38,954 bases of DNA from a virus. The stretch covers positions 1-38,954 of the IMG/VR virus record IMGVR_UViG_3300047995_000022. One strand, written 5' to 3'. Under the pieces are notes generated by a model that worked only from the letters and a program-made list of their open reading frames with translations, searched no databases and was not told the origin of the DNA. Positions 7,295 through 38,954 of this stretch are shown here, one piece after another; position 1 is the first letter of the stretch, and the number at the start of each line of letters is the position of its first letter. The translations under genes and the position numbers were made by a program.

Positions 7295-7302
7295 CATAAA
7301 TA
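7295..7302 (+). promoter_or_regulatory. Late promoter box (CATAAATA) for gp20
   Basis: One mismatch from TATAAATA. Counting the last A as -6, transcription would start near 7308, in the loop of the hairpin at 7298-7320. Late transcripts would therefore lack the left arm. The box sits directly after the gp19 stop (7289-7291). Confidence 0.6.
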
Positions 7303-7322
7303 CCTTAGTATTAGGTATTTTT
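7298..7322 (+). terminator. Factor-independent terminator after gp19
   Basis: Left arm AAATACCT (7298-7305), loop of seven bases, right arm AGGTATTT (7313-7320), continuing into a run of five T (7318-7322). The stem is 8 bp but AT-rich, so termination is likely partial. It overlaps the late promoter box of the next gene. Confidence 0.6.
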
Positions 7323-7332
7323 CCATAATATA

Positions 7333-8925
7333 ATGGCTCAATTATTTGGATTCTCTATTAAGAGAAAGGAGGGACCGAAGGGTCAGTCCCCGATCCCTCC
7401 ATCACAGGATGATAGTATCACCACAATTGCTGGTGGTTACTTTGGGCAATATGTAGACCTAGATGGCGGCGCATCGTCTCGTAATGAATACGAGCTGATT
7501 CGCCGCTATCGTGATATGGCACTTCACCCAGAAGTCGATACTGCTATCGATGAAGTGGTGAATGAAGCTATCATTTCCGATCTGGATGATACTCCAGTTC
7601 AGATCGAATTGTCTAACCTTGAAGTTGGAGATAATATCAAGACAAAAATTCGTGAGGAATTCGAGAACGTCAAGCGTCTGCTTGATTTTGATCGTAAATC
7701 CCACGAAATTTTTCGTCGATGGTATATTGATGGAAGACTTCACTACCACAAAGTAATCGATCTCAATAGTCCTAAACTCGGTATCACCGAACTTCGCTAT
7801 ATTGATCCCCTAAAGATCAAGAGAGTGCGCGAGATCAGAAAGAACGATAAGGATCCCAACGCAGCACGACGTGCTAATGGTGGATCTGAACCGTCTGCTC
7901 TTGATTATGATTTTGGAAACCACGATGAGTATTACATCTATAACCCAAAAGGTTTCCTGAATATGAATGGACCTGAGCAAAAAGGTATCCGCATCGCGAT
8001 GGATGCTATTGCTCACACCAATTCAGGACTGATGGATCTCAATCAAAAGATTGGTCTTTCATTCCTACACAAGGCAATCAAATCTCTTAACCAGTTGAGA
8101 ATGATTGAAGATGCTTTGGTTATCTACCGTTTGAGTAGAGCACCTGAGCGCAGAATTTTTTACATCGATGTTGGTAACCTGCCCAAAGTTAAGGCAGAAC
8201 AATACCTTCGCGATGTAATGAATCGGTATCGCAATAAGCTGGTATATGATGCTAACACGGGTGAGATTCGCGATGACAAAAAGCATATGTCTATGCTGGA
8301 AGACTTCTGGCTTCCACGCCGCGAGGGAGGGCGCGGTACCGAAATCTCCACCCTTCCTGGCGGGCAAAACCTTGGTGAACTCAAGGATGTAGAATATTTC
8401 AGAACGAAATTATTCAAGTCACTCAACTTACCACCAAGTAGATTGGATGGCGAAAAAGGATTTAGTCTCGGAAGAAGCAATGAAATTCTCCGTGATGAAC
8501 TTAAGTTTGGTAAGTTTGTTGGTCGTCTCCGCAAAAAGTTTTCTGTTCTATTTGATGATCTTCTGAAGACTCAGCTTGTTCTCAAGCGAGTTATCAGTGT
8601 AGAAGAGTGGGAGGATATGCGTGAGCATATTCAATATGATTTCCTATTCGATAATCATTTCCAAGAACTAAAAGACGCGGAACTTAACAACAATCGTATG
8701 GATCTTGCTGTCAAGATGGAACCATACCTGGGACGTTACTTCTCAGCTGAGTACATCAAAAAGCAAGTACTTCAGCAGAGTGATCAAGAACGGAAAGAAA
8801 TTGAAACTCAGATCAAAGCAGAGAGAGCAGCTGGTATCATTCCTAGCGTTGTTCCTATCGATGCAGTACTCCCCGAAAACCAACCTGATCTAGGAAGCGC
8901 AAGTTCTAGCGACTTAGATAGCTAA
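7333..8925 (+). CDS. 20: Portal vertex protein (gp20)
   Basis: The 530-residue protein has the gp20 signature: YELIRRYRDMALHPEVDTAIDEVVNEAI near residues 53-82, then WYIDGRLHYHKVID, GLMDLNQKIGLSFLHKAIKSLNQ, YRLSRAPERRIFYIDVGNLPK and EDFWLPRREGGRGTEISTLPGG. A dodecamer of it forms the head vertex through which the terminase pumps DNA and to which neck and tail join; it also nucleates head assembly. No clear ribosome site precedes the ATG. Cyanobacterial and cyanophage genes often lack one. Its stop codon overlaps the late box of the next unit. Confidence 0.96.
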   Translation: MAQLFGFSIKRKEGPKGQSPIPPSQDDSITTIAGGYFGQYVDLDGGASSRNEYELIRRYRDMALHPEVDTAIDEVVNEAIISDLDDTPVQIELSNLEVGDNIKTKIREEFENVKRLLDFDRKSHEIFRRWYIDGRLHYHKVIDLNSPKLGITELRYIDPLKIKRVREIRKNDKDPNAARRANGGSEPSALDYDFGNHDEYYIYNPKGFLNMNGPEQKGIRIAMDAIAHTNSGLMDLNQKIGLSFLHKAIKSLNQLRMIEDALVIYRLSRAPERRIFYIDVGNLPKVKAEQYLRDVMNRYRNKLVYDANTGEIRDDKKHMSMLEDFWLPRREGGRGTEISTLPGGQNLGELKDVEYFRTKLFKSLNLPPSRLDGEKGFSLGRSNEILRDELKFGKFVGRLRKKFSVLFDDLLKTQLVLKRVISVEEWEDMREHIQYDFLFDNHFQELKDAELNNNRMDLAVKMEPYLGRYFSAEYIKKQVLQQSDQERKEIETQIKAERAAGIIPSVVPIDAVLPENQPDLGSASSSDLDS

Positions 8926-12424: not shown

Positions 12425-12480
12425 CGGGGCAGGTTGCCCCGACTGTCCTTTCAGACCTCCCTCACGGGGGGTCTTTTTTT
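12425..12480 (+). terminator. Tandem hairpin terminator after gp23
   Basis: Two hairpins follow the capsid gene. The first is CGGGGCA (12425-12431) / TGCCCCG (12435-12441) with a three-base loop. The second is AGACCTCCC (12453-12461) / GGGGGGTCT (12466-12474), 9 bp with one G-U pair and loop TCAC, running into a T tract to 12480. The first may block exonuclease, the second is a standard intrinsic terminator. Confidence 0.85.
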
Positions 12481-12513
12481 ATGTAAATAATTATCTATAT
12501 CAGGCATCCCTGA

Positions 12514-29733: not shown

Positions 29734-29786
29734 TAGTGTCGCTCTTTCGTGCGCGACCTCTACATACGGAATATACGCTACCAATG

Positions 29787-29813
29787 GACGGGTTTCGCCA
29801 CTCGTCTTTTTTT
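29787..29813 (+). terminator. Factor-independent terminator before hsp20
   Basis: GACGGGT (29787-29793) pairs with ACTCGTC (29800-29806), one G-U pair, loop TTCGCC, then a run of seven T. It ends the unit running from the gp45 region. Confidence 0.8.
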
Positions 29814-29819
29814 ATGTTC

Positions 29820-36233: not shown

Positions 36234-36409
36234 TGATTGAATTAGAACTTACCCCTGAAATGGCGGTATCAATTCTGCAAGCACTAATTCGTGAGCAGAG
36301 AGACTATACAACAGATGAAACCTGTTGCCCCTATCGCATCAAAAAACTTCGCGAAGTGATTGGACAACTTGACTCTAAACTAGATCTTTATTACGAGGAC
36401 AAAAAATGA
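36233..36409 (+). CDS. Small helical protein (58 aa)
   Basis: ATG 36233 shares a base with the mazG stop, and its own TGA overlaps the next ATG. The order is a strand (IELELTPEM), a helix (AVSILQALIREQRD), CC, then RIKKLREVIGQL and an acidic tail. This repeats the element order of the proteins at 1264-1473 and 2141-2341. Function unknown. Confidence 0.55.
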   Translation: MIELELTPEMAVSILQALIREQRDYTTDETCCPYRIKKLREVIGQLDSKLDLYYEDKK

Positions 36410-37077
36410 AACGCGCTATTATTCTTAGCACCCTTCTAGGTCTGTCAGCTGCATTGCTGTCACCAGTAATCGCTAAACCTACCAAGGGATACTTCTCGAT
36501 GGATGCTATGGGATGTATGCTTTTGAAAGAATGCACTGAAGGCATTGATCAAATTCATAGTTCTGGTGATCTTCGTTCAGCATATCCTGATTCTAATTGG
36601 GACCTTGTTTCAGCTGAGTTCAATCAAATTATGGTTGCATTCGGACAGGTTGGAGTTAATGTGTATCTTGCTGATGAAAAGTATTTTCCAGTAGGACATC
36701 GTGGTGTCTATCATACTGTTAGCAATCACTTCTATCTTAACAAAAGATATGTTCATCGTCCTGGAGTGTTGATGAGTGTTGTCCGTCACGAAGGATGGCA
36801 CGCTGCGCAGGATTGTATGGCAGGTGGTATCAATAATAACTTTATTGGTATCATTCATAATGAGGAAGACGTTCCTCAGATCTGGCAAGATATGGCTAAA
36901 GATACCTACAGGAGTCAACCTAGTGCTATTCCTTGGGAGAAGGAAGCGTTTTGGGCAGCACGAACTGAGAGTATGACACAAAATGCACTTGAGTCTTGCG
37001 CTGCTGGTACGATGTGGTCAGATTATGAACTGACCCCGATGACCCGAGAATGGCTTGAAAACAACGGGCACCTCTGA
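36406..37077 (+). CDS. Exported HExxH-type zinc peptidase-like protein
   Basis: The 223-residue protein begins with a signal peptide (MKRAIILSTLLGLSAALLSP, cleavage likely after VIA at 23). HEGWHAAQDCMAG gives HExxH at 128-132, and E180 in WEKEAFWAART is the probable third zinc ligand. The pattern is that of a gluzincin-like peptidase with about six Cys, fitting an oxidising compartment such as the periplasm. It could loosen the cell envelope late in infection or modify secreted proteins. Phage-coded exported peptidases are uncommon. It is translated in overlap with the gene before and closed by a terminator. Confidence 0.7.
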   Translation: MKRAIILSTLLGLSAALLSPVIAKPTKGYFSMDAMGCMLLKECTEGIDQIHSSGDLRSAYPDSNWDLVSAEFNQIMVAFGQVGVNVYLADEKYFPVGHRGVYHTVSNHFYLNKRYVHRPGVLMSVVRHEGWHAAQDCMAGGINNNFIGIIHNEEDVPQIWQDMAKDTYRSQPSAIPWEKEAFWAARTESMTQNALESCAAGTMWSDYELTPMTREWLENNGHL

Positions 37078-37083
37078 TAGACT

Positions 37084-37121
37084 AAAGACCTTCTGATAAA
37101 TACATCGGAGGGTCTTTTTTT
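37084..37121 (+). terminator. 14-bp terminator hairpin that also covers the next ribosome site
   Basis: AAAGACCTTCTGAT (37084-37097) pairs along its whole length with ATCGGAGGGTCTTT (37104-37117), two G-U pairs, loop AAATAC, T run to 37121. The right arm contains GGAGGG, the Shine-Dalgarno site of ATG 37122. Confidence 0.85.
37095..37102 (+). promoter_or_regulatory. Late promoter box (GATAAATA) in the hairpin loop
   Basis: One mismatch from TATAAATA. With its last base as -6, RNA starts near 37108, inside the right arm, so late transcripts lack the left arm and keep GAGGG free 14 bases or less before ATG 37122. Confidence 0.65.
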
Positions 37122-38264
37122 ATGGCATACAACGTCATCCCTAAAGATTATAAGGAACTCAGCGCAGCTGTGTCCCATATGAATCCGCAGTCCGCTATTG
37201 AGGCGACACGACTGTGGAATTATCTAGTGACTGAGTATGGGAAACTGCTTCCCGATCCACTTGCTTTCGCTTCTGACAGGAAGAATGATGTTAAGTATGC
37301 ACGTGCATTGAAAGGACAGTTTACAGAAGCGCAATTGAAGACGAAGTTAAAGATAAGTAATCTTAAATTTACTGCAGGCGATGGTAGCAGAGGTAATCGT
37401 GGTGCATCAAACACAGGCAACTTGTTTGAGAAGCAGTTGGAGAATGGTTTAAATGATTGGATTGAGACTAATGAATATACTAACAATCCATACAAAGCTT
37501 TTATTGAAGATCTTGTTAAGACGTATGATTTAAATGACTGTCAGTTTGTTCTTGTTTCTGAAGGTGAGTTGAACAAGAAAAGACCATTAGTATTTTCTGG
37601 TACTAGTTGGAAAGTTGGTGATGCTACAGCAACCAATTATGACATTGGTTCTATTGTCACTGACTTGACCTTGAAAACTAAATGTAAAGGGAAAGCGGAT
37701 CAGGAAATTTATCTTTCTCTAAAGAAAGGTGGGACAACAACGATGTCCAACTTAGGTATGAAAAAAATATTTCCTCAGAGTGAATTGTCTGTGGGAAAAA
37801 TTACCAATCAAGTTGGATTGAAAGTTCTTGAAACGTTTGGTATAGATAATCAAAGACTTTGTAAGATATTTCAAGAAGCTCTTGCGGGTGAAGTAGTCAG
37901 TGGCGGTAACGTTACAAACCCTACGTATAATAGAGGACTACTGCAAAGTATGATCCGAGGATCTATAGGGTATGGATACCACTATACTCATTTGCAGACT
38001 GGTGGAAAGATAAAAAGCTTTCCTATGACTAAACAGAAATGTGATGATGCAACTAACATTACATCTGTCATAGTTCATTATGGAGGTAAAACTGGTACTG
38101 GTCAACGTGTTGATATTACAGTGAAGACACCAGTTATGGAGTTGAAATTTAATATTCGTGATACATCTGGTAGCAGTTTACCTTGGCCAGACAAATTGCA
38201 GTCAGCGTATAAGTTTAAAGATGAACTATTGTTCAGTACATCAGACGAAGGTTACGACGACTAA
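37122..38264 (+). CDS. Putative PD-(D/E)xK-fold protein (380 aa)
   Basis: ATG 37122 follows the terminator T run directly. The first 100 residues are helical and basic (LKGQFTEAQLKTKLKISN). From there LFEKQLENGL (E103), NYDIGSIVTDLTLKT (D181) and EIYLSLKKGGTT (K201 in LSLK) have the order and spacing of the E - D - xxK core of the PD-(D/E)xK nuclease fold. The second half is Lys/Thr-rich without clear domains. Cyanophages keep similar proteins, often called hypothetical or virion proteins. It shares a base with the next, ligase-like gene, so a joint DNA- or RNA-processing task is inferred. Confidence 0.5.
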   Translation: MAYNVIPKDYKELSAAVSHMNPQSAIEATRLWNYLVTEYGKLLPDPLAFASDRKNDVKYARALKGQFTEAQLKTKLKISNLKFTAGDGSRGNRGASNTGNLFEKQLENGLNDWIETNEYTNNPYKAFIEDLVKTYDLNDCQFVLVSEGELNKKRPLVFSGTSWKVGDATATNYDIGSIVTDLTLKTKCKGKADQEIYLSLKKGGTTTMSNLGMKKIFPQSELSVGKITNQVGLKVLETFGIDNQRLCKIFQEALAGEVVSGGNVTNPTYNRGLLQSMIRGSIGYGYHYTHLQTGGKIKSFPMTKQKCDDATNITSVIVHYGGKTGTGQRVDITVKTPVMELKFNIRDTSGSSLPWPDKLQSAYKFKDELLFSTSDEGYDD

Positions 38265-38954
38265 TGGCAAATGTAAAACAGCTTAAGCACCTGGAGCATC
38301 TTGAAGATGAGATGCTGAACTACGGCGTCGATGGATGTATGGCAGCAGTATCATTTCTTGAAGAACTGTTAGCAATGCTGGGTAAAAAGTCTAAGTCGGA
38401 TGGATTTATGCAGACCAAATGGGATGGCGCTCCCTCTATCATCTGCGGAAAGAATCCTCAAAATGGTATGTTTTTCGTGGGTACTAAGTCTGTATTTGCC
38501 AAGACACCTAAAGCTTGTTACAGCGATATAGATGTGGATATGTATTACGAGGGTGACCTGGCAGAGAAACTTAAGTTCTCACTGGCATATTTTAGTAAGC
38601 TTAATATCCCTGGTATTGTACAAGGTGACTTGTTATACACCAGCAGCACACTTGATACAGAGACTGTAGATGGAGAGAAACTTTATACCTTTAGACCTAA
38701 CACTATCACTTATGGCATTCCAATAGATCATCCTATTGGTAGAGCAGCAAAGGTATCGAAGATCGGTGTAGTTTTTCATACTCACTATACTGGTGATGAC
38801 TTCCAGTCAATGCAAGCTCGTGCTGGTGCTCCTATCAATACCTTTGTAAAGGTGCCAGAGGTACTAGTTATTTCTAATGATACTCCTATCAACAGTGTTA
38901 CCTTAAGTAGTAACGAGATTGTTAAATTTCATAATCACATTAAAAAAATTGAGA
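38264..38954 (+). CDS. Putative KxDG nucleotidyltransferase (ligase-like), 5' part
   Basis: The frame runs off the window; 230 residues are visible. FMQTKWDGAPSIICG holds KWDG at 52-55, the KxDG motif I whose Lys takes AMP or GMP in DNA/RNA ligases and capping enzymes. GIVQGDLLYT (117-126) fits motif III, and SKIGVVFHTHYTG (165-177) motif IV. The distances (about 70 and 45 residues) suit the family. DNA repair, RNA repair or capping-like transfer are all open; motif V and the OB domain would lie outside the window. ATG 38264 shares a base with the preceding stop. Confidence 0.5.
   Translation, partial: MANVKQLKHLEHLEDEMLNYGVDGCMAAVSFLEELLAMLGKKSKSDGFMQTKWDGAPSIICGKNPQNGMFFVGTKSVFAKTPKACYSDIDVDMYYEGDLAEKLKFSLAYFSKLNIPGIVQGDLLYTSSTLDTETVDGEKLYTFRPNTITYGIPIDHPIGRAAKVSKIGVVFHTHYTGDDFQSMQARAGAPINTFVKVPEVLVISNDTPINSVTLSSNEIVKFHNHIKKIE

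Follow-up and report, generated by a model that had tools for sequence, protein, structure and literature searches.

The window analysed here, a 38,954-base IMG/VR virus record taken as a whole, covers part of the genome of a T4-like cyanomyovirus, with genes for a major head protein, DNA polymerase, UvsX and a DnaB/gp41-like helicase; the host class of the virus is marine cyanobacteria. The features described below all lie on the plus strand. The upstream gene (36406..37077) belongs to phrog_591 (PHROG E 4.5e-105), and its homologue in S-SCSM2R is annotated as SprT-like/Spartan. It is followed by a gene at 37122..38264, which encodes a 380 aa member of phrog_8438 with a possible, weakly matched, restriction-nuclease-like fold, and by a DUF6267/phrog_455 gene (38264..38954) that begins in overlap with the 37122 stop and is cut by the window end. 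Genes for UvsX, the DnaB/gp41-like helicase and a MazG-like protein place the intergenic element studied here in a replication-type neighbourhood.

Hairpin anatomy and predicted late start

A 34-base hairpin of 14 bp (37084-37117), followed by a T7 tract, lies directly 5' of ATG 37122, in the order AAAGACCTTCTGAT-AAATAC-ATCGGAGGGTCTTT-TTTT-ATG. The fold defines the loop AAATAC (37098..37103) and the right arm ATCGGAGGGTCTTT (37104..37117), and the left arm AAAGACCTTCTGAT (37084..37097) was identified as the anti-ribosome-site strand from sequence, fold and the arm-swap covariation described below. The ribosome-binding site GGAGGG (37107..37112), assigned from sequence, fold and leader geometry, falls wholly within the right arm and is paired in the long RNA. 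The first three T of the T7 tract (37115..37121) belong to the stem, and the tract doubles as a putative terminator U-tract and as the spacer between the ribosome site and ATG. A late-promoter box of the T4 family, GATAAATA (37095..37102), consists of the left arm's last three bases and most of the loop; it is of the NATAAATA type, the cyanophage late motif described for S-PM2 (PMC2984593). Folding of 37060-37140 gave -22.5 kcal/mol vs -12.4 +/- 2.7 for shuffled sequences (z -3.8), with 1/200 shuffles equally stable. The hairpin, box, GGAGGG, T run and ATG were thus correct to the base in the first-pass annotation, which had been made from the sequence before any of these analyses.

We predicted the late +1 from the T4 rule that places the box end at -6 (PMC1524935). 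The predicted start is 37108, at the ribosome site, in agreement with the earlier proposal of a late start near this position. The resulting late RNA would lack the left arm, keep all but the first G of GGAGGG, and have a 14-nt leader that opens with the ribosome site. The bases round the predicted start (CATCG/GAGGG) are GC-rich. T4 late promoters tend to be AT-rich just 3' of the box, which is a tendency and no strict rule (PMC2988020), and the sequence downstream of the box here, CATCGGAGGG, departs from it with 3/10 A/T.

Conservation among relatives of the 37122 gene

We gathered homologues from IMG/VR and from the cultured phages S-RSM4 and Sf-CH1b. TAAATA was present in 51/51 upstream regions examined, whereas 2.9% of 50-nt segments drawn at random from these loci contained it, and most relatives had the box form CTAAATA, which is also a late-box form in phage Aeh1 (PMC1524935). 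The hairpin was almost unchanged in relatives that are 78-80% identical, while at ~60% identity its sequence differed (e.g. ACCTCCCTCTAAATAGTTAGACGGGAGGTTTTCTTATGG) and its plan was the same; the layout was kept in about 40 distinct relatives despite differing hairpin sequences. The first-pass annotation had proposed a search for the element in related phages, and it was found there with the box, ribosome site and pairing kept as the arm sequence changes. Six groups of upstream neighbours were present (phrog_591, a small ORF, a MazG-region gene, a glutaredoxin/thioredoxin-like gene and two others), and the hairpin plan was retained beside the first four. Because it is retained next to four or more unrelated upstream genes, the element belongs to the downstream gene.

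Pairing between the arms was retained through compensating changes. Across the hairpins of 34 distinct relatives, each sequence's own arms folded at a mean of -16.4 kcal/mol vs -14.1 kcal/mol when left arms were swapped between relatives, and 0/20,000 permutations were as good, a result that is inflated by kinship among the sequences, as in all our permutation tests. Clear compensated arm sets were GACCTTCCGA/TCGGAGGGTC and CCTCCCATC/GACGGGAGG. Applying the T4 rule to the relatives gave predicted late leaders of 12-17 nt to the ATG, and the ribosome site was kept in all 40 distinct leaders with the paired layout (40/40). In these leaders the predicted +1 falls at or just 5' of the ribosome site and excludes the left arm, so that the predicted RNAs begin with GAGGG, AGGGAGG, ACGGGAGG, GGAGG and others. 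The hairpin representatives that we checked folded at about -10 to -21 kcal/mol in the long form and at 0 to -2 kcal/mol in the late form. With this geometry, masking of the ribosome site in the long RNA is likely. One variant (L374-L377) has the order box-CCCCC-GTAA-GGGGG-TTTTTT, in which the short left arm occupies -5 to -1 and the predicted +1 lies past it.

Seven distinct relatives (among L029-L032 and L437-L443) lacked the hairpin, so it is not essential. Their box position puts the predicted +1 at the A of the ATG, and leaderless late mRNAs are possible in these phages. The box was constant even where the hairpin was absent, which makes the hairpin an added layer. A late promoter within the 37122 element is very likely by these comparisons, and we infer the late class of the gene from its box only. 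An alternative to a true terminator is an RNA-processing or 3'-end-protecting hairpin, with late 5' ends made by cleavage, and the literature on T4 late ends cautions that primer extension cannot tell initiation from cleavage (PMC2988020). Such a hairpin would leave both the conserved late box and its fixed distance to the ribosome site or ATG unexplained, and we regard it as very improbable.

Probable terminator part and T4 precedents

We scored the hairpin as an intrinsic terminator with the d'Aubenton-Carafa score. The 37122 element has the anatomy of an intrinsic (Rho-independent) terminator, with a stable stem (11-bp core, -14.9 kcal/mol) and a U-tract (T7), and a score d of 36.7. It differs from an ordinary terminator in that it also holds the promoter box and ribosome site of the next unit. 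Scores were 10 to 44 in the relatives scored, apart from L376, which had no qualifying terminator hairpin. The same folding applied to T4 as a positive control recovered the leader hairpins and boxes of e, soc, 49 and I-TevII. The terminator scores of these were -16 for e, -51 for I-TevII and a weakly positive +10 for 49, and soc had no qualifying terminator hairpin by the same score.

A switch that combines a late promoter with a hidden ribosome site is already known from T4 e, soc, 49 and I-TevI. Hairpins that cover the ribosome site in early RNA, and that transcripts from a late promoter skip, have been described for T4 e, soc, 49, I-TevI, I-TevII, I-TevIII and segB and for Aeh1 mobE (PMC3014915, PMC2988022). 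In T4 e and soc, the late genes lie on longer early transcripts whose hairpin covers the ribosome site, with the late promoter in the hairpin's 5' strand (PMC3014915). At 37122 the ribosome site is likewise paired in the long RNA and the late box likewise begins in the left arm, and the gene may also lie on a longer early transcript; the first-pass comparison with e and soc was apt; the two T4 genes differ from it in having two boxes upstream of each and in having no terminator-like hairpin (soc) or a negative score (e). I-TevII is the closer match. Like I-TevI, I-TevIII, segB and Aeh1 mobE, it has the box in the hairpin and the ribosome site in the right arm, giving a late RNA without the left arm, and, as at 37122, the loop holds its box; unlike the 37122 element, it has no T tract after the stem. 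Gene 49, in which the box immediately precedes the left arm and the ribosome-site region is in the hairpin, resembles the L374-L377 layout. It differs in its short TTTATT tract, and the literature consulted does not describe it as having a terminator role.

The T4 precedents raise the possibility that the 37122 element is a T4-type switch only, i.e., a late promoter and a masking hairpin in which the T tract is a U-rich spacer that causes little termination. T4 e, soc and I-TevII work without a terminator, and the T tract in many relatives is the interrupted TTTTCTT, in which the unbroken run is missing. The window nonetheless had a positive terminator score, as did every relative scored except one. 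In a set of 35 further cyanophage leaders whose ribosome site is similar, the spacers were 32% T and contained TTTT in 11% of cases. Gene 13 hairpins (see below) moreover pair a U-tract with a box even though the ribosome site is outside. We therefore consider a switch with little termination unlikely, and termination at the hairpin probable, slightly less so than masking.

The terminator part separates the 37122 element from most T4 precedents, with gene 49 a borderline case. The first-pass annotation had called the element a condensed form of the T4 hairpins that also terminates. The positive score, which T4 e, soc and I-TevII do not share, supports this, and the weak score of gene 49 means that the distinction is not absolute. 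We found no prior description of a variant in which the known switch is fused to an intrinsic terminator, in a literature search that covered papers outside subscription, and the same search found no genome-wide cyanophage start-site map.

Gene 13, other loci and a proposed combined account

Related elements occur at a second locus. In S-PM2 (at 66.8 kb), Sf-CH1b (at 109.03 kb) and S-RSM4, gene 13, which encodes the head-tail adaptor, is preceded by a hairpin and T tract, with the box in the hairpin loop. Among 29 distinct upstream regions from relatives of S-PM2 gp13 (L448-L527), TAAATA was present in 29/29, and the box was in a hairpin, by our own criterion, in 26/29. The arms covary here too (19 distinct hairpins; own arms -17.8 vs swapped -13.7). 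In most cyanophages examined, the gene 13 hairpin does not include the ribosome site, and structural (late) genes lie upstream. The terminator and late promoter are thus the common core, and masking is an add-on specific to sites such as 37122. The switch in one element proposed by the first-pass annotation fits the 37122 locus and does not extend to the core of the design. Three more distant T4-like phages (L078, L116 and L141) had a similar element 5' of a gene, and the products in L078 and L116, the two tested, matched the gp13 family (phrog_211). T4 gene 13 itself had no late box upstream.

The gene 13 layout, with hairpin and box between late genes and the ribosome site outside, is what would be expected if a terminator and an overlapping late promoter simply shared DNA for compactness and masking were incidental. 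At 37122, this explanation has to contend with 40/40 paired-layout leaders in which the ribosome site occupies the element's 3' portion and is spaced so that the late RNA retains it, and with upstream genes of replication type, where masking would matter. Compactness without a role for masking is, in our assessment, quite unlikely at this locus.

The box on its own is no argument for a promoter, since the window has no excess of ATAAATA (8 found vs 6.7 expected). Strong terminators are also common in these genomes, and an ordinary intrinsic terminator could have an AT-rich loop that resembles a late box by chance. We counted boxes in the strong terminators that precede a start codon in 10 phage genomes and the window, 60 in all. 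TAAATA was in the loop of 8/60; among permuted boxes in the same 60 terminators, ATAAAT, which overlaps the true box, was found in 4 and 13 other permutations in 0-2. A wider count that also allowed the box just outside the stem gave 12/425 for TAAATA vs 0-6 for permutations. Four of the counted genomes were chosen for carrying the gene or the element, which biases this enrichment upward; the conservation tests at the 37122 locus are independent of it. In a pattern scan of IMG/VR, strict hairpins with the box in the loop made up 18/77 distinct matches vs 8/81 for a permuted box, among the matches listed. This contrast is only modest because the pattern itself selects terminators, and we relied on orthologues instead. 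The excess of TAAATA over other permutations in terminator loops, together with its presence upstream of every relative examined, including those without a hairpin whose predicted start falls at the ATG, makes a chance resemblance highly implausible. At least one scan match (L127), which seems to lie 5' of a tail gene not of T4 type, may be due to chance.

The hairpin/late-box design is real and in the minority: a genome has some 40 late boxes, of which 0-2 follow it. Terminator hairpins held the late boxes 5' of genes in 2/43 cases in S-RSM4, 2/44 in Sf-CH1b, 2/35 in S-PM2 and 2/41 in a further genome (G001), and in none in Syn9, P-SSM2, P-SSM4, HTVC008M and T4.

We favor an account of the 37122 element that combines terminator, late promoter and masking, to which we assign a probability of roughly 0.7 from the sequence comparisons. 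The hairpin would be a joint between two transcription units, with three signals on the same DNA. RNA of the replication unit (uvsX, gp41-like helicase, mazG-like gene and phrog_591) would form the complete hairpin on reaching the U-tract, and most of it would end there. Read-through RNA would keep the fold and hide GGAGGG, so that no 37122 protein would be made from the long RNA. Initiation at T4-family late promoters, about 6 nt past the box, depends on gp55 and gp45. Late in infection, a gp55-type polymerase would recognise GATAAATA and start near 37108, and the late RNA, without the left arm, would form neither terminator nor mask and would present the ribosome site at the opening of its 14-nt leader.

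It is an even bet whether this can be generalized to a reusable joint of marine T4-like phages, a palindrome that ends one unit, starts the next from its own loop and gates translation where needed. Such a joint would be in use at two or more loci (gene 13 and that of the 37122 family), its arm sequences being interchangeable, and late initiation would remove both terminator and mask. If true, late genes could be inserted in early blocks by means of a self-contained 40-bp element that insulates, times and gates them. The same bases would be an early 3' end and a late 5' end, in viruses that abound in the ocean, and the element would offer a compact early-off, late-on switch design. The cultured phages S-RSM4, Sf-CH1b and S-PM2 carry related elements.

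Other sites in the window and in IMG/VR resemble parts of this arrangement. The site CATAAATACCTTAGTATTAGGTATTTTT (7296-7330), 5' of the gene at 7333, has a T tract and a late box that overlaps the left arm; its hairpin is weak, with a negative terminator score (-12.8), and it was left uncounted. Two sites with TTTTTTATG (12453-12482 and 29786-29816) are strong terminators with no gene start, each having a T tract that continues into an ATG followed by a stop within two codons. In a 187,935 bp IMG/VR genome (G003), two loci (L356:10067 and L361:3863) have a very regular series of hairpin, late box, ribosome site and T tract directly 5' of an ATG.

The product of the 37122 gene had no Pfam or PDB sequence match. 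Its AlphaFold model (pLDDT 76) had MspI as best PDB fold match, which was weak (E 0.04, probability 0.38). D181, S199 and K201 are invariant (D-x17-S-x-K), and their D-x17-(N/S)-x-K spacing is that of MspI. The invariant residues and weak fold match suggest, as a lead only, that the product is a candidate restriction-like nuclease. If so, it would fit the T4 pattern of endonucleases that carry such hairpins. The product of the 38264 gene (DUF6267/phrog_455) contains a KWDGAPS stretch that seems to resemble motif I of nucleic-acid ligases.
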